Shown piece after piece: positions 36,646 through 55,238 of a DNA stretch of 64,000 bases. Under the pieces are notes generated by a model, which did no database searches, was not told the origin of the DNA, and was given only the letters and a program-made list of their open reading frames with translations. Origin of the DNA: Robiginitomaculum sp. (lineage in GTDB: Bacteria > Pseudomonadota > Alphaproteobacteria > Caulobacterales > Maricaulaceae); the NCBI GenBank assembly GCA_015485335.1, contig WFTT01000043.1, positions 1 through 64,000 of the forward strand, written 5' to 3'. Made by a program: the position numbers and the translations under genes. Each line of letters starts with the position of its first letter. Within the stretch, counting starts at the first letter, position 1.

Positions 36646-37317
36646 ATGAAGTTCTCTGCCCTCGCCCCCGGTCTGGCCTTTTTAATGCTGAGTGCGTTTT
36701 CACCGCCCCCGGTGCACAGCCAGGTAAACACCGCCAATGTGACGCCCAGCCAGCATTTTGACAAAAATGATCCACAAACCCAAAAACAGGTTGAACGCCT
36801 GAACGCATATGTGCGCTCGATCCGCACCATATCCGGCCGCTTTGTGCAAAGCACCGCCAGTGGCAATCAGCAAACCGGTACGTTTTTCTGGAAACGCCCG
36901 GACAAGCTGCGCATTGAATATGATACCACGCCCTTGCTGATTATTGCCGATGGCTCGAACATTGCGCAAATCGACAAGGAGCTGGAAACCATTGACCAGA
37001 TCCGCATTTCCTGGACGCCCTATAAATTCCTGCTGGCGCGCAAATTTGATTTGTTAAAAGGTGCAGACCTGATCGGGTTGGAACGGACCGAAAATGCCAG
37101 CTTTGTTACCGTCCAGGACAAGGATGGTGAGCTGGATGGTGATTTTACGCTGATCTTTGCCGAGCCGGAATTAAAGTTGCTGGGCTGGACCTGGAAAAAT
37201 GCCTTTGATGGTGAAGTGCGGTTTTTGCTGAATGACGTTCAGGAAGGAAAAAAGCTCAGTTCCAAACTGTTTGTGATCCGCGAAGAAGAACGCCGGCGCG
37301 GCGGGCGGCGACGTTAA
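36646..37317 (+). CDS. lolA: Outer-membrane lipoprotein carrier protein LolA
   Basis: A 223-aa periplasmic chaperone that ferries lipoproteins from LolCDE to the outer membrane. A signal peptide (residues about 1-25, ending PPVHSQ) precedes LNAYVRSIRTISGRFVQSTASGNQQTGTFFWKRPDKLRIEYD, the typical LolA opening. The C-terminus is rich in arginine. It follows ftsK by about 100 bases and is ended by a terminator at 37395-37429. Confidence 0.9.
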   Translation: MKFSALAPGLAFLMLSAFSPPPVHSQVNTANVTPSQHFDKNDPQTQKQVERLNAYVRSIRTISGRFVQSTASGNQQTGTFFWKRPDKLRIEYDTTPLLIIADGSNIAQIDKELETIDQIRISWTPYKFLLARKFDLLKGADLIGLERTENASFVTVQDKDGELDGDFTLIFAEPELKLLGWTWKNAFDGEVRFLLNDVQEGKKLSSKLFVIREEERRRGGRRR

Positions 37318-37394
37318 AATACAAGCGCGCCAATGGCTGTGAACCGATAGAAGCTACTCAAACGACTCAATTCACCTAGTGATATTTATACCAC

Positions 37395-37429
37395 ATGCAA
37401 ATGGTAACGTAAATTTCATTTGCATTTTT
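37395..37429 (+). terminator. Rho-independent terminator of lolA
   Basis: ATGCAAATG (37395-37403) pairs perfectly with CATTTGCAT (37417-37425) and is followed by a run of T to 37429. Its 3' arm overlaps the -35 element of the possible small RNA promoter. Confidence 0.75.
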
Positions 37430-37448
37430 CTCTAATCGTGTCTTTAAT
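37420..37448 (+). promoter_or_regulatory. Putative promoter in the lolA-xthA gap
   Basis: TTGCAT (37420-37425) and TTTAAT (37443-37448) are exactly 17 bases apart. Transcription would begin near 37455, directly in front of a structured stretch that ends in a strong terminator. Confidence 0.45.
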
Positions 37449-37454
37449 GCACCG

Positions 37455-37598
37455 TAATGATTGCAACACCGGGCTTTGTTCCGTCCCCCGTAGCGGGTCC
37501 AGTAGCAATCTGGCCGTATACGTATCCATCTCGGCCCTGCGCGATAACACGCGCAAACATCGACGCCCGGCCGCCCCCTCTCGGCCGGGCGTCTTCGT
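37455..37598 (+). ncRNA. Candidate small RNA between lolA and xthA
   Basis: About 145 bases with no ORF bearing a ribosome-binding site. It can fold into GATTGC/GCAATC closing a CCCG-TAG-CGGG hairpin, GGCCG/CGGCC, GCGCG/CGCGC, and a terminator with perfect 12-base arms GACGCCCGGCCG (37562-37573) and CGGCCGGGCGTC (37582-37593). Flanking promoter and terminator define an independent unit. Its length is near that of 6S RNA but I could not match the 6S fold; the family is unknown. It might instead be a long leader of xthA. Confidence 0.4.
37562..37597 (+). terminator. Strong GC-rich terminator before xthA
   Basis: Perfect 12-base stem GACGCCCGGCCG / CGGCCGGGCGTC with an eight-base pyrimidine loop, followed by TTCGTTT. 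The T-tract is interrupted, but stem stability is high. Confidence 0.6.
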
Positions 37599-37684
37599 TT
37601 ATGCACTTCCTGCATTGCCAGGCGTGACAGACTTGCGGGCCTCCCCAACCTCCCCCATAACCGGGATCAGCAAGGGAGAATGCC

Positions 37685-38503
37685 GTGAGCGATTTCAAAA
37701 TAGCCAGCTGGAATGTCAATTCAGTACGCCTGCGGGCACCCCAAATTATTGATTTTCTTGACGATTCCCAACCTGATGTCTTATGCCTTCAGGAAATCAA
37801 ATGCCGCAATGGTGAATTCCCGGCCGAGATTTTTGCCAAGGCAGGCTATGAGAACCAGATGGTGCGCGGTCAAAAAGGAATGCACGGCGTTGCCATTGTT
37901 TCCCGTCACCCCCTTAGCGAACTGGCGGACCCTGAATTTTGCGAACACGAACATGCCCGCGCCGCCATGGCCACGATCAGGGGTATCGACATTTGCAATG
38001 TCTATGTGCCAGCAGGCGGCGATGAACCGGACGCCAAAACCAATCCAAAATTTGCTCATAAATTGAATTTTCTGGACCGTATGAAGAAATTTTTTGCGGC
38101 ACGCCAAAAAGAAAATCCCAAAGACAGATTGATTCTGACCGGGGATTTGAACATCGCCCCCCTGGAATCAGACGTCTGGTCGCACAAACAATTGCTCAAA
38201 GTGGTCAGCCACACGCCGATCGAGGTCGAGGCCCTGAATGCCATTCAAAAGGCAGGAAACTTTGCAGACATCGCCCGCGAGCTGATCCCGGAACCAGAAC
38301 CGGTGTTTACCTGGTGGAGTTATCGTTCAAAGGACTGGACCAAAAACAATCGGGGCCGCCGCCTGGATCATATCTGGGTCAGCCCGGCCCTGCGCGAAGC
38401 GGCGCTGCACCATGGGGTGGCCGGGTTTGAGGCGCACACCCCCTGCCGGTCATGGGAGCGCCCATCGGATCATATTCCGATCACCCAGATGCTGCGCCTG
38501 TAG
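37685..38503 (+). CDS. xthA: Exodeoxyribonuclease III
   Basis: A 272-aa AP endonuclease/3' exonuclease of base-excision repair. Motifs: ASWNVNSVRLR, LCLQEIKC with the metal-binding glutamate, GMHGVAIVSRHP, LTGDLNIAP and the final SDHIPI active-site Asp-His. Start codon is GTG at 37685, preceded by GGGAGAA. It overlaps the end of the convergent dapB gene by 23 bases. Confidence 0.94.
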   Translation: MSDFKIASWNVNSVRLRAPQIIDFLDDSQPDVLCLQEIKCRNGEFPAEIFAKAGYENQMVRGQKGMHGVAIVSRHPLSELADPEFCEHEHARAAMATIRGIDICNVYVPAGGDEPDAKTNPKFAHKLNFLDRMKKFFAARQKENPKDRLILTGDLNIAPLESDVWSHKQLLKVVSHTPIEVEALNAIQKAGNFADIARELIPEPEPVFTWWSYRSKDWTKNNRGRRLDHIWVSPALREAALHHGVAGFEAHTPCRSWERPSDHIPITQMLRL

Positions 38504-46025: not shown

Positions 46026-49000
46026 CTAGAAGCGCGAACGAACACGAAGGGTGTAGGTACGACCCAGACGTTCAACGTTGGTGAAGTAGCCAGCGGCTTC
46101 TTCATACACATTCGGCTTACGGTTGGTGATGTTATCAACACCGAGCTGAATGGACGTGCTGTCCTTGATTGTATAGGCCAGCGAGCCGTTGTGAATGACC
46201 CGAGAGCCAAATTTAACAATCTGGTCGTTTTCATCAAGCACATAGGAGTTACCCAGCGTGTTGAACACGGGGCTGTCTTGATAGCTGATGCGCCAGAACG
46301 CACGCCACGGACCACGAACGTAGGTGGTATCCCAAGTTCCCTGCCATTTCGGATCGTTAAAGGTACCGATCGGATCGCTAGGCAGTTCGTCAAGAACCTG
46401 AACCTGGTTGGTGATGCCGCGCAGCAATTGCAGACGGAAACCAATTTCACCAAGATCATTTTTGGTCCATTTGGCCCCCTTGAACAGCTTACTGGCTTCA
46501 ATAGCGTCAGCAACATCAAAGTGGTAGGAACCTTGAACCTGCAGGCCCTGATATTTGGAAAGACCGGCATTAAGCTGTGACGTTTTACCAAAGACCACCT
46601 GACCAGAAGCATCACGACGGAACAGGTCCGGGCTACAGAACGGATTGTTCGGGAAGCTTGGGCTGTCGAAACAGGCCTGCATGATCTGCGTCAGGCTAAG
46701 TGGCGTAATCCGATCTTTGATTTTGATGCGGAAGAAATCCACTTGCAAGGACAGATTTGGTACCCAGCGTGGCTGCAAAATACCACCAATGTTGAATGAA
46801 CGCGAACGTTCTGGCAGCAAGTTGGGGTTACCCTCGTCAGCGCCAATAATGGTGGCGTTCACGATGTTAGAGGTAAATGGCTGGGTAATGCCAATCGCGG
46901 CACAGTTGGCTGCCCGGGTTGCCGGATCAGGACCACCGGTGATGAAGCGTTCATCACAAGGGTCAGAGGCAAACAGGAAAGCCTGAACGGATGGTGAGAA
47001 CAACTCAACCAGCGCAGGTGACCGGATAGCCGAAGTATACGAGGCCCGGAAGATAATGTCTTCAACCGGTGCCCAACGGCCACCAATTTCATACACGTTA
47101 TCCGTAGAGGAGTTCGCTTTGATCCGGTCCAGGTTTGCAACGCGGTTGTTCACCCGACGACCAGAAGCCGTCAGTTCCAACAGGTGCATGCCAGGAATGT
47201 TCATGCCAGGTTCGGTAATCGGAACCAGCACTTCGCCGTAGGCTTCATAGGTCTTGGTTTGACCACCGGTCGCCAGGAATGGCGAAGAACGAGTGATATT
47301 CAAAGCCGTACCCAGACCCGGCGTAAACGCAGCGCGGTCACGACGGTTTTCAAAGCCAATGTTGAAGTTGATCCAACCGGCAGGCAGTTTGAACAGATCA
47401 CCGCCAAAGTTGGCTGTAAACACGCGCTGAGCGATGTTTGAAGACGTGATCCGCGGTGCACCATTGATAAAAGCAATGGCTTCGGGACTACCGGCACCTT
47501 CACCAAACAGGTTCAGAGGCACACAACCGTCGGCGTATGGCAGACCGTCATCCTGGGCACCATTGCCACCAGCAAAGCTGTTGACGCCGGTAAAGTTGCC
47601 AGAAGCAATATCGGCACTTACGCGACAGATGATGTCACCACGGTTAATGCCGGAAACACCACTGAGACCATCACGGTTCAGTACGTCAAGAGCGTCGGTA
47701 AGGTTGGCAGCGGCACCAGCGTTTACAATGCCTTGCAACAGAGCATCATCAACACGAACCGCGTCGATGGCGTTAAAGAAACGACCATCAACAATACCAA
47801 ACCGGCGGGTTTCAACATCGGAGCTACCAAACACGGCAGAAACATCCCAGCCGAAGTTACGACCAGCGGCTTCGAAATCACCTTCCAGAGCCGTTACCAG
47901 ACGCCAGGTGTGGTTTTCGGTAGAGTTAGCACCAGAATTAACAATGTCATTGTTAAAGCGGTTAACCCAGAAGCTGCTCAGGCCATTGCCTTCGAGAATG
48001 CCACGAGCCTGTGACGTCAAGAACGGGTTATCCGTGGTAAAGCGCAGAGCACCGGATTCACCACCAAACGCAAAGGTTTGGAAACCGCCCTGGTTAACCA
48101 GTTCCGTAGCACGGGAGTTGGCATAGGTGGTTTGAACAACCGCGCGGACATTAGGAAGAATGTCATAGTGGCTGTTTGAAGACATCACGACGCGTTGCAG
48201 CGGAGAACGGATTTGCGCAACACTGTCAAAGAAGTCGATGCCGCAAGTTCCGCCTTGGGAGAAGAACAAGGAGCTGGCCCCTGGAGATTCGCCAGGAACA
48301 CAAGAGCTCAGCGTGCCATCGGGATTAAACTGATAGAAGTTCCCATCAGCAAGAGAGCCAAGACCAATTGACGGAATGGTGAAGGGGCTTGGTGAAACCG
48401 AACCACCTGGGCCAAACAGTTGAACGTTCTGATCAAAGAATACGCGACGGAAGGTATCTGCATCGCCGTCACCATCAATGTCATCAGGCTGGCCGTCACC
48501 ATTAAGGTCTTGCGTACCAAAGTTAACCAGGTTCGGGTCACCAGTGAAGAAACGAGGACGCTTGCTCAGCAGGCCGCCCTTTTGTTCGTTATATTCAACC
48601 GAGAAAGTGGTGTTACCGCGACCGTCCGGCGTGTTGGCACCGAAAACAGCCTGGGCCTGATAGGTTGGGAAGTCGGCTTTTTCAGTAAGACCGAACTGGC
48701 CACCCATTTCAAAACCTTCATAGTCATCACGCAGGATAACGTTCAGGGTACCGGCGATAGCATCAGAACCGTAAATCGCAGCACCGGCGAGCGGCACAAC
48801 TTCGACACGGTCGATCATGGCAACCGGGATGGAGTTCAGGTCAACCTGCAAACCACCTGAGGAACCAAAGGTAACCGGCACGTTTGAGGATACAAAACGA
48901 CGGCCATCAACCAGGGTCAATGTACGCTGGGTACCCAGATCAAAAAGGTCAACATAGTTCTGACCAACCGTGAAAGTGTTTTGAGCACCGTCCGGCGTAA

Positions 49001-49304
49001 TGCCGTTACCAAACGCAGGAATTTCGTTCAACGCATCGGCAATGTTGGTAAATGCCCGTTTGTCAAACTCTTCGGTGTCCACGCTGATGGCAGGACGCAC
49101 GGTGTCGATGCCGGCGCGTTTAATGCGCGAACCGGTAACCGTGATCAGTTCTTCGGTCTTGCCGGTATCGTCGTCCGCGGCCTGGTCCGTTGTTTCCTGC
49201 GCAAACGCAGCTCCACCTAGGCTGAGCGCCACAGCGGATACGCCTGTCGCAAGCATTAGGCGGAAACCTATTGCCCGGCGTTCCATTTCATTATTATCAG
49301 TCAT
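46026..49304 (-). CDS. TonB-dependent outer-membrane receptor (Caulobacter-type)
   Basis: About 1,092 aa. Signal peptide (residues about 1-35, ending GGAAFAQ), then EELITVTGSRIKRAG, a plug domain (about 50-170, with FTNIADALNEIPAFGNG and TLTLVDGRRFVSSN) and a beta-barrel ending YTLRVRSRF with the terminal phenylalanine required for BamA insertion. The class imports carbohydrates, peptides, iron chelates or other large nutrients; the substrate is unknown. An insertion DLNGDGQPDDIDGDGDAD near residue 255-275 looks like a calcium-binding loop. I chose the ATG at 49304 (MTDNNEME), preceded by AAGGGG. Confidence 0.92.
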   Translation of the reverse strand: MTDNNEMERRAIGFRLMLATGVSAVALSLGGAAFAQETTDQAADDDTGKTEELITVTGSRIKRAGIDTVRPAISVDTEEFDKRAFTNIADALNEIPAFGNGITPDGAQNTFTVGQNYVDLFDLGTQRTLTLVDGRRFVSSNVPVTFGSSGGLQVDLNSIPVAMIDRVEVVPLAGAAIYGSDAIAGTLNVILRDDYEGFEMGGQFGLTEKADFPTYQAQAVFGANTPDGRGNTTFSVEYNEQKGGLLSKRPRFFTGDPNLVNFGTQDLNGDGQPDDIDGDGDADTFRRVFFDQNVQLFGPGGSVSPSPFTIPSIGLGSLADGNFYQFNPDGTLSSCVPGESPGASSLFFSQGGTCGIDFFDSVAQIRSPLQRVVMSSNSHYDILPNVRAVVQTTYANSRATELVNQGGFQTFAFGGESGALRFTTDNPFLTSQARGILEGNGLSSFWVNRFNNDIVNSGANSTENHTWRLVTALEGDFEAAGRNFGWDVSAVFGSSDVETRRFGIVDGRFFNAIDAVRVDDALLQGIVNAGAAANLTDALDVLNRDGLSGVSGINRGDIICRVSADIASGNFTGVNSFAGGNGAQDDGLPYADGCVPLNLFGEGAGSPEAIAFINGAPRITSSNIAQRVFTANFGGDLFKLPAGWINFNIGFENRRDRAAFTPGLGTALNITRSSPFLATGGQTKTYEAYGEVLVPITEPGMNIPGMHLLELTASGRRVNNRVANLDRIKANSSTDNVYEIGGRWAPVEDIIFRASYTSAIRSPALVELFSPSVQAFLFASDPCDERFITGGPDPATRAANCAAIGITQPFTSNIVNATIIGADEGNPNLLPERSRSFNIGGILQPRWVPNLSLQVDFFRIKIKDRITPLSLTQIMQACFDSPSFPNNPFCSPDLFRRDASGQVVFGKTSQLNAGLSKYQGLQVQGSYHFDVADAIEASKLFKGAKWTKNDLGEIGFRLQLLRGITNQVQVLDELPSDPIGTFNDPKWQGTWDTTYVRGPWRAFWRISYQDSPVFNTLGNSYVLDENDQIVKFGSRVIHNGSLAYTIKDSTSIQLGVDNITNRKPNVYEEAAGYFTNVERLGRTYTLRVRSRF

Positions 49305-52295: not shown

Positions 52296-55238
52296 CTACA
52301 TTTTGACATTTACGCCAAAGAAGAGGAACCGGCCGAGAGAGTCGTATACGCCCGGATAGGTGTTGCCGTTACCAAAACCAGCACCCGTTTCAGTGCTGAG
52401 CGGAGGATCAACATCCAGCAGATTGTTAATACCACCACGGAACGTTACCCGTTCAGAGGCATAATACTGACCAGAGAGGTCAAAGTAGTTTTTAGCGCTA
52501 AAGTGATCATTAATGGTTCCTTGCGGACCACCATCACGATTCACGGAGCCAAAATAACGCCATGTCAAAGACATATCCACATCGAATGGAGAACTCCAGG
52601 TTCCCATCATCCGGTGACGATATTCAGGGTTCGGTGTACCACACTCACCACTGACCAGGCCTTTACATTCTTTCGCCGGACTACCCGGGAAAGAGGTCGT
52701 TTTCAGTGCATCAAGGATGGTTCCGACGTAGCTGAAGTTCAGCGAGCCAGCTTTGCCCAAGTCATACTGATAACCCGCGGCAATATCAAACCCAGAGGTT
52801 TTCAGCGTGGCAATATTGACCGCCGTTGCCAAAATCCCACCAGAGGTGTTGTCCAGGAACAATGAACCAGCGGTATCCCGCGTGATCAGGCTACAGAATG
52901 CAGCATCACCAGTATCCAGGCAGCGCTCAAAGGTTTGTACTGGTGGAATGGTGGCAATGGCCTGTTTCACCTTGATGTCGAAATAGTCAACAGACACGGA
53001 CAAACCAGGGATCATGCTCGGCTGTATAACCGTACCGATTGTGTAAGTATCAGAAACTTCTGGCTTCAGGTTCGGGTTACCACCAGTAACAATATTGAAC
53101 TGACCAGCTGCGTTATCCGGAATATTACCATATTGAGCAGCGGTAACACCCGTGCGAGCACATTCGGTCAAAGAACGGAACGGCGTAGGACCGGCGCAAT
53201 CATCGAAAGAGCCATCCGGGTTTTGTTGCAGATCAAACAGACCTGTGTTTTGCGCCGAAAACAGTTCGATAATGTTCGGGGCGCGTACAGCACGCTGATA
53301 TTGTCCACGCAAACGAACGTCATGGACAGGCACCCAAGTCAGGCCTGCGGAGTAGGTATCGGTTGTAAAGCCGTTATCCACGCCATTGCCCTTCACGGTG
53401 TAATCAGAATACCGATAAGCACCATTCAGCGTCAGCTCTTCAGCGAAGGCAGCGCCTTCAACCAGCGGGATTTGGGTTTCAGCAAAAAGCTCAAACACGC
53501 GGGTTTTACCAGCCACTGGCAGGGTAGCCCCACCAACACCAGTAAGACCGCCACCTGGCGTTGCCGACAGGGCATCCGGTGTCAGTTCCAACTGGTCTAC
53601 GCGATATTCGTAACCGGTCGACAATTGCACACCACTTGAAGCCATGGGGCTTTTCACGCCGTAAACACCAAGATCCGTTTGCGCGTTACCGCCAATGATC
53701 TTTTGTTCCACAAAGCCGTTCACGAAGGCATCTTCGGTAATGTAGTCAACGGCGGCCTGTGTAACGCCACCGATCTGGAAGATGTTGTAAGGCACACAAC
53801 CTGCATTGCCGGAGGCACATACCGGATTGCCATTACCATCCAGCACAACATTAAAGGCATCGTCCAAATTGGCGATGGAAATGTCGTTACGTGAAATGGT
53901 TGAATAGCGGGTACGTGAGAACTGACCAAAAGTATCCCAGTCAATATTGTCCTTAAACGTACCGCGGAAACCACCAACCATGCGGAAAGTAGTCAGGTTA
54001 AGATCTGAATTCCGTGGACCGCCTTCAACGTCACGACGCAAAATAAATACCGTGGCGTTATCGTTTGGACCCGTACACCCAAAGGCATCAAAGAAAGACC
54101 CTGGGCCAGAACCAAAGAATGGGTTGCTACAGGGAATTGATGGGTTGTGCGCTGCAAACGTACCTGACGGCGCTATCTGTGCATTCGTCTGGTTGTCGGT
54201 GAGCGACAGATCCAGATAAGCCTCTAGATTAGGCTTGATTTCATAGTGCGCCATCGTGGTGAAGTTGAACTTCTCACTTGGACGCTGCATGAAGTTAAAT
54301 GGGTTAAAGTTAAACGTTTGGGCGGGCCCACCAACAAACGGCACGATTTGCCCATCAGGTTGCAGGAATACGTCATTAATGCCGTTTGGTGTAATCGCAA
54401 AGAAACGACCGGTCGCACTGGTGGAAGAACCAATACAGGCAACACCACCAAAAGATTGTGGACCACTATCCAGACCAAAGGCACAAGCGGAAATATCCCG
54501 TTTACGCTGCTCTACAGCGTTTTGGTTAGAATAGGAAAGGTTGACGGTAACATTACCACGTCCATCAGCCGTATTGGCACCAAACGTAGCGCTCAAATTG
54601 ATATTACGACCATCGAACACCGAGCCACCCTGGGCTGGCTGTTTTGCAGCCTTGGCTACATTCTGGGCAAAGTCATTAGAGTTACTGTCCTGATAATAGC
54701 CAATCTGGCCATCAAATTCCACACCCTCAAAATCACGCTTGAGGATAAAGTTAACAACACCAGCCATAGCGTCGGAACCGTAAACCGCCGAAGCACCACC
54801 AGTGAGCACATCAACTCTCTCAACGAGCTGGGCTGGGATCAGATCAAGGTTGGCAGCCGATGATTCAGGCGAACCAAAAGGCAACCGCTTGCCATCAATC
54901 AGCACCAAGGTGCGAACGGCACCAAGGCCACGCAAATTGACGTTAGACGTACCCGTTGCACCGTTGGAAACCTGGCTGGTTTGACCGGCGAACGCTTGTG
55001 GCAGGATGTTGATCAAATCTTCAATACGCGTTGTACCGCGAGCATCAATTTCACCCGCATCAAGCTGCGTAACCGGACTGATTGCAACCAAATTAGATTG
55101 TTTCAGCCGCGAACCCGTGACGACAATGGCGTCCTCGGACGCACTCTCGTCGGTTGACTGTGCCAGCGCTGGACTGGCCAGCGACCCGGCAATAAATGTG
55201 GAAGCGAGCAACGCCCCCCTCAATGAATATAACTTCAC
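52296..55238 (-). CDS. TonB-dependent outer-membrane receptor (Caulobacter-type)
   Basis: A 980-aa receptor. Signal peptide (residues 1-26, ending SPALAQ), EDAIVVTGSRLKQSN, plug with IEDLINILPQAFAGQTSQVSNGATGTSNVNLRGLGAVRTLVLIDGKRLPFG, and a barrel ending FLFFGVNVKM. The N-terminus gives no extra signalling domain, so it is a plain transporter. Substrate unknown. Start codon is GTG at 55238, preceded by TGGAGG, a very good ribosome-binding site. It shares family but not close identity with the receptor at 46-49 kb. Confidence 0.92.
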   Translation of the reverse strand: MKLYSLRGALLASTFIAGSLASPALAQSTDESASEDAIVVTGSRLKQSNLVAISPVTQLDAGEIDARGTTRIEDLINILPQAFAGQTSQVSNGATGTSNVNLRGLGAVRTLVLIDGKRLPFGSPESSAANLDLIPAQLVERVDVLTGGASAVYGSDAMAGVVNFILKRDFEGVEFDGQIGYYQDSNSNDFAQNVAKAAKQPAQGGSVFDGRNINLSATFGANTADGRGNVTVNLSYSNQNAVEQRKRDISACAFGLDSGPQSFGGVACIGSSTSATGRFFAITPNGINDVFLQPDGQIVPFVGGPAQTFNFNPFNFMQRPSEKFNFTTMAHYEIKPNLEAYLDLSLTDNQTNAQIAPSGTFAAHNPSIPCSNPFFGSGPGSFFDAFGCTGPNDNATVFILRRDVEGGPRNSDLNLTTFRMVGGFRGTFKDNIDWDTFGQFSRTRYSTISRNDISIANLDDAFNVVLDGNGNPVCASGNAGCVPYNIFQIGGVTQAAVDYITEDAFVNGFVEQKIIGGNAQTDLGVYGVKSPMASSGVQLSTGYEYRVDQLELTPDALSATPGGGLTGVGGATLPVAGKTRVFELFAETQIPLVEGAAFAEELTLNGAYRYSDYTVKGNGVDNGFTTDTYSAGLTWVPVHDVRLRGQYQRAVRAPNIIELFSAQNTGLFDLQQNPDGSFDDCAGPTPFRSLTECARTGVTAAQYGNIPDNAAGQFNIVTGGNPNLKPEVSDTYTIGTVIQPSMIPGLSVSVDYFDIKVKQAIATIPPVQTFERCLDTGDAAFCSLITRDTAGSLFLDNTSGGILATAVNIATLKTSGFDIAAGYQYDLGKAGSLNFSYVGTILDALKTTSFPGSPAKECKGLVSGECGTPNPEYRHRMMGTWSSPFDVDMSLTWRYFGSVNRDGGPQGTINDHFSAKNYFDLSGQYYASERVTFRGGINNLLDVDPPLSTETGAGFGNGNTYPGVYDSLGRFLFFGVNVKM

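Follow-up and report, generated by a model that had tools for sequence, protein, structure and literature searches.

A probable orthologue of the Caulobacter small RNA RusT between lolA and xthA in Robiginitomaculum

The window analyzed, 64,000 nucleotides (nt) of Robiginitomaculum sp. (assembly GCA_015485335.1, contig WFTT01000043.1, positions 1 to 64,000 of the forward strand), carries between lolA and xthA a conserved unit with a small RNA (sRNA) of about 147 nt, which is assigned here to the RusT family on the basis of a covariance model (R2), covariation and synteny. Robiginitomaculum is an alphaproteobacterium of the Maricaulales (NCBI taxonomy), and the window's LolA shares 97% identity with the LolA of a Robiginitomaculum sp. 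metagenome-assembled genome. The gene order is lolA (36646–37317; Pfam LolA PF03548, E 3.7e-21), the sRNA (37454–37602) and xthA (37685–38503, GTG start; TIGR00195 exodeoxyribonuclease III, 191 bits), all three on the plus strand.

By DNA search, the segment was recovered from ten genus members, counting the genome of the window, and from two more genomes of the family. When nine genus members were aligned to the window and identity was counted in 15-base bins, the values were 0.12–0.15 directly past lolA and 0.12–0.42 before position 37378. Identity then climbed to 0.74–0.91 over positions 37378–37422, was 0.50–0.98 and mostly above 0.7 over the whole of 37378–37602, and dropped to 0.34–0.50 between 37602 and xthA. 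The most conserved block was that of the terminator loop (37573–37587, identity 0.98). The conserved unit thus starts about 40 bases upstream of the start given in the preliminary description, made from the letters of the sequence and its open reading frames. The segment has no open reading frame conserved in strand or frame, as the longest one switches both among the relatives. Since the block is conserved without a conserved frame and its edges drop, it is a non-coding unit including its own promoter, in agreement with the non-coding block described earlier.

The promoter (37420–37448, plus strand) consists of the -35 box TTGCAT (37420–37425), a 17-nt spacer and the -10 box TTTAAT (37443–37448); it is present as first read and is conserved in the relatives. 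A consensus promoter scan listed no promoter at the sRNA, and the support comes from this conservation. By analogy with the Caulobacter RNA, transcription would start near 37454. The part upstream forms a putative promoter or operator element (37378–37425, plus strand; identity 0.74–0.91 among genus members). It includes a perfect 9-bp inverted repeat, ATGCAAATG (37395–37403) and CATTTGCAT (37417–37425) separated by 13 nt, the second arm being the -35 box. The preliminary description had taken the -35 box to overlap the lolA terminator, which now appears doubtful. The repeat is kept alongside the sRNA promoter in the relatives, while the T-run following it is lost in several of them (TTGAAAAG, TTTGCAGAAA, TTGACTAAAAG). 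Also other families keep a (CACA)GCAA-N~18-TTG pattern with the second arm as the -35 box, and not the T-run. Joint conservation of repeat and sRNA promoter, together with the loss of the T-run, makes it more likely that the repeat is part of the sRNA promoter, or an operator over its -35 box, than that it is the lolA terminator. Downstream of the sRNA terminator, a possible separate promoter of xthA was observed at 37633–37660 (TTGCGG-17-CATAAC), with TTGACA...CATAAA at this site in the relatives L006 and L007; with such a candidate promoter of its own, xthA need not rely on read-through.

Folding of positions 37450–37605 gave -64.1 kcal/mol against a mean of -47.8 for dinucleotide shuffles (z -4.3, none of the 200 shuffles being as good). 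Four hairpins were recognized, all on the plus strand. Stem-loop 1 (37459–37510; fold and covariation) has the outer stem GATTGC/GCAATC and exposes CGTCCCCCG. Stem-loop 2 (37512–37536; covariation and family alignment) pairs GGCCG with CGGCC and corresponds to the seed hairpin of RusT, and stem-loop 3 (37538–37555; covariation) pairs TGCGCG with CGCGCA. Stem-loop 4 (37562–37593) is the terminator, supported by the hairpin scan, covariation and conservation; its arms GACGCCCGGCCG (37562–37573) and CGGCCGGGCGTC (37582–37593) enclose the loop CCCCCTCT (37574–37581). The perfect 12-base terminator stem reported earlier was confirmed, 11 of the 12 pairs being GC.

RNAalifold analysis of 12 members recovered the four hairpins with double changes at 15 of the 42 pairs. 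From a MAFFT alignment of 35 members representing the five families of the order, made independently of any model, pairs were predicted in stem-loops 2 and 4: altogether 98.4% of the cells were paired and both sides had changed in 12 of the 18 pairs. None of 500 shuffles reached any of the five measures of covariation in this alignment, and slid partners were paired in only 36–47%. The model-fitted alignment of 67 matches had many compensatory changes in all four hairpins, but it is biased towards the model and includes a few reverse-strand terminator hits. The several hairpins noticed at first are therefore four, with compensatory changes in the homologous lolA–xthA gaps exceeding the shuffle and slide controls. 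The four hairpins with their C-rich loops are under selection.

Two covariance models were built, R1 from 12 members and the broader R2 from 33, the 33 members of R2 including none from the family of the probable Caulobacter locus. With an E-value limit of 0.01, R1 matched 124 of the 249 genomes searched in the order; about 70 of these, from all five families, reached 40 bits. Additional matches of about 25–36 bits in genomes with multiple hits were rejected as paralogues; they are ordinary terminators, located at the ends of genes or next to a transfer RNA gene, and terminators at unrelated genes reached 33.6 bits at most. Because these secondary matches proved to be ordinary terminators, a match was counted only if it exceeded about 40 bits or was supported by synteny. 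Minus-strand hits were likewise rejected as members, as they represent the palindromic terminator in reverse reading. The best match outside the class had 29.5 bits among the matches listed. Each of the 30 top-scoring matches in the order lay directly 3' of lolA on the same strand, and 26 of them had xthA within 1.5 kb.

R2 matched the window at 37449–37602 with 116.2 bits (E 6.8e-26), the window sequence being in its training set. At held-out loci elsewhere in the class, R2 gave 50–71 bits (L065, L061, L068, L060, L063 and others), many of these loci lying near lolA or xthA and having the same hairpin order, with loops such as GUUGCCCCCCCGC and AUCCCCUCCCGG. In four class-level loci (L062, L071, L069 and L070) the RNA follows an aminotransferase-like gene, with xthA further downstream in three of them, which shows the locus to be rearranged on its lolA side. 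Metagenome-assembled genomes of Robiginitomaculum with LolA 56–62% identical (L113–L116) have a strongly diverged, AT-rich RNA next to lolA, in which the C-rich terminator loop is retained and stem-loop 2 seems to be lost.

The distribution also bears on whether the segment could be a cis element, either a leader of xthA or a 3' untranslated region of lolA, functionless in trans. The common strand of the RNA and both flanking genes and the absence of another evident lolA terminator would suit such an element. The RNA is, however, kept in several relatives whose xthA lies at a distance of over 1 kb (L100 and L101, for instance) or is missing from the flanking stretch examined (L034 and L038). 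Furthermore, the sequence adjoining either gene is not conserved, conservation of the RNA extends to the promoter, and the Caulobacter RNA of this locus works in trans, all of which makes a cis element very improbable. The independent intergenic sRNA proposed in the preliminary description is strongly supported by this comparative evidence, as a conserved unit of promoter, RNA and terminator.

In Caulobacter crescentus, the gap between CCNA_03820 (lolA) and CCNA_03821 (xth) encodes RusT (CCNA_R0199), described in 2024 (PMC11005374). RusT is an Hfq-bound RNA of 118 nt with four stem-loops, the last one being the terminator; the Hfq footprint covers nt 72–87, and the seed nt 45–57, where C53 was tested by mutation (PMC11005374). 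Its promoter is bound and repressed by NtrX, and the RNA is induced by zinc as well as by iron starvation; among its targets are ompW and TonB-dependent receptors, the receptor messenger RNAs (mRNAs) being repressed in trans (PMC11005374). Homologues have been reported from Caulobacteraceae only (PMC11005374). In our data, the loci L087 and L088, probably of Caulobacter, have in the lolA–xth gap an RNA of 118–119 nt with UAUCCCCUCCCGG at nt 45–57 and C at nt 53, as published for RusT, when the start is set one base into the stretch taken. R2 detected this probable Caulobacter locus with 41.6 bits (E 6.9e-8), against the maximum of 33.6 bits for terminators. On account of the same gap, the length and seed of the RNA of L087 and L088 and the R2 match, we regard the window RNA as quite probably a trans-acting sRNA orthologous to RusT.

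The window RNA and RusT have in common the lolA–xth gap, the strand, an own promoter, and the four stem-loops with the terminator as the last; stem-loop 2 is the conserved pairing hairpin of the family, and the RusT Hfq footprint falls in the region of stem-loop 3 of the window RNA (PMC11005374). They differ in length (about 147 against 118 nt), in stem-loop 1, which is longer in the window RNA and has a C-rich loop of its own, and in stem-loop 2, the C-run of which is broken in the window RNA, a C-rich terminator loop being present instead.

If the window RNA functions as RusT does, it would be transcribed from its own promoter, starting at about 37454, and would end at the terminator at 37593. 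Hfq, the gene of which is present in the genome, would bind in the region of stem-loop 3 and of the tail at the 3' end. Base pairing of the C-rich loops with G-rich ribosome-binding sites would repress mRNAs, chiefly those of outer-membrane transporters, under iron scarcity. A repressor, NtrX in Caulobacter, may silence the promoter, and the conserved inverted repeat spanning the -35 box is its possible site; an operator at this position would fit the NtrX repression known from Caulobacter. Stem-loop 2 of the window species has an interrupted C-run, while the runs in stem-loop 1 and in the terminator loop are intact; pairing may therefore depend more on the loops of the first and fourth stem-loops, and a shift of the seed is possible. 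The genome has 26 TonB-receptor matches. The motif GGGG close to the start codon (25 nt or less) was somewhat commoner among these receptors, with 11 of 26, than among other genes, with 8 of 49 (one-sided p 0.016, uncorrected; GGGG was one of four patterns tried, and the start codons were picked by a simple rule). The window itself encodes two TonB-dependent receptor plug domains (48747–49103 and 54756–55079, both on the minus strand), which are possible targets.

Several observations weigh against the orthology with RusT and the function proposed from it. The identification of L087 and L088 as Caulobacter, and of their RNA as RusT, is based on locus, length and seed. The C-rich seed is near-invariant across the family, with the stem-loop 2 loop AUCCCCUCCC, but the window species has UAUCCAUCU and has thus lost the C-run. 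The terminator tail TTCGTTTAT is a weak U-tract. The published NtrX motifs CAAN2-5TTG and GCAN9TGC (PMC9223101) do not match the spacing of the inverted repeat. Finally, duplex energies did not differ between the 26 TonB-receptor start regions and 49 window genes.

The altered loop of stem-loop 2, together with the different length and loop of stem-loop 1, would also agree with an unrelated new sRNA family sharing the lolA–xth gap with RusT by chance, and R1 gave the probable Caulobacter locus only 30 bits, which is within the range of chance terminators. Intermediate families, however, bridge the two RNAs with an unchanged hairpin order and a near-invariant GCCGGA...AUCCCCUCCCGGC hairpin, and R2 picks up the probable Caulobacter locus above the terminators, so that chance sharing of the gap is improbable to a high degree. 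The preliminary description had left open a new family. This holds in so far as no Rfam family reached its cut-off for the lolA–xthA RNA, the Rfam gathering search of the whole window being empty; it does not hold in so far as the Caulobacter RNA of the locus is already described as RusT (PMC11005374).

The only Rfam family to match the window RNA plausibly over its full length was ar7 (RF02342), in register, with 23 bits and E 0.015, under the cut-off of 60 bits. L047 had a similar full-length, in-register match with 33.5 bits (E 0.0063), also below this cut-off. The Rhizobiales RNA ar7 (SmrC7/SmelC023) resembles the window RNA in its length of about 145–150 nt, in its GUCCCCC-type loop, and in its four hairpins with C-rich loops, the last and likewise C-rich one being the terminator (PMC3927594). 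The window RNA might accordingly belong to ar7, with RusT and ar7 forming one ancient alphaproteobacterial family. Against this, ar7 did not match 17 other loci of the family even at an E-value limit of 0.3, and spurious Rfam families reached similar E-values. Also the neighbours differ: ar7 adjoins polA (PMC2780559, PMC3927594) and, in Rhizobiaceae, a MarR-type gene, while the window RNA lies between lolA and xthA and polA was not found in the window assembly. The ar7 match is suggestive at most; common ancestry of ar7 and the window RNA is possible, but that the latter belongs to ar7 is unlikely. Searches with ar7 and ar9 in 190 genomes of the class, and with ar7 in 20 chosen genomes, yielded no true ar7 sequence. 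Weak ar7 hits also occurred in the relatives away from the lolA gap; most of them have neither lolA nor xthA in the neighbourhood and appear to be chance matches. The assembly, rated 98.97% complete, had no match to DNA polymerase I (PF00476), which may reflect loss or an assembly gap.

Likeness to 6S RNA, also suggested at first, extends to an intergenic, non-coding position and a loosely similar length. No Rfam 6S match was found at the thresholds used, and instead of a single long rod with bulges the RNA has four short hairpins, their loops rich in C; with neither sequence nor structure corresponding, a 6S-like RNA has next to no probability. ChvR was rejected as the identity of the RNA, being at a different locus. 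The EcfG general-stress promoter, which together with a stress-response locus characterizes the sRNA GsrN, has the consensus GGAAC-N16/17-GTT, and by eye no site of this type was present upstream of the window RNA. GsrN of Caulobacter has a similarly exposed C-rich loop pairing with G-rich mRNA sites (PMC5869019), but the window RNA differs from it in having a sigma-70-type promoter and in its locus between lolA and xthA.

With the window RNA read as a RusT orthologue, the kind of RNA is known from Caulobacteraceae; what would be new, judged from sequence comparison, is the Robiginitomaculum-type member and a family far wider than reported and absent from Rfam. The family spans all five sampled families of the order and has members in other families of the class, which suggests that outer-membrane remodelling by this sRNA family is much older than Caulobacter. 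Its covariance model could enter Rfam, its loops under selection are identified, and the conserved promoter element is a candidate repressor-binding site. More tentatively, and with the odds rather against it, RusT, the lolA–xthA RNAs of the order, the other members in the class and possibly the Rhizobiales ar7 may make up one ancient alphaproteobacterial family, in which a C-rich pairing motif occurs in up to three loops and the seed loop shifts between lineages.

Two further structured elements were observed apart from the lolA–xthA RNA. Shortly outside the sRNA match of L065, positions 1645–1723 (L065:1645-1723) form a very strong, seemingly perfect hairpin of about 35 bp for which cmscan reports microRNA families; it is probably a mobile or structural repeat. 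Elsewhere in the genome of the window, an Rfam suhB-type sRNA was found above its cut-off (G000:C102:75558-75632, plus strand, 54.1 bits).
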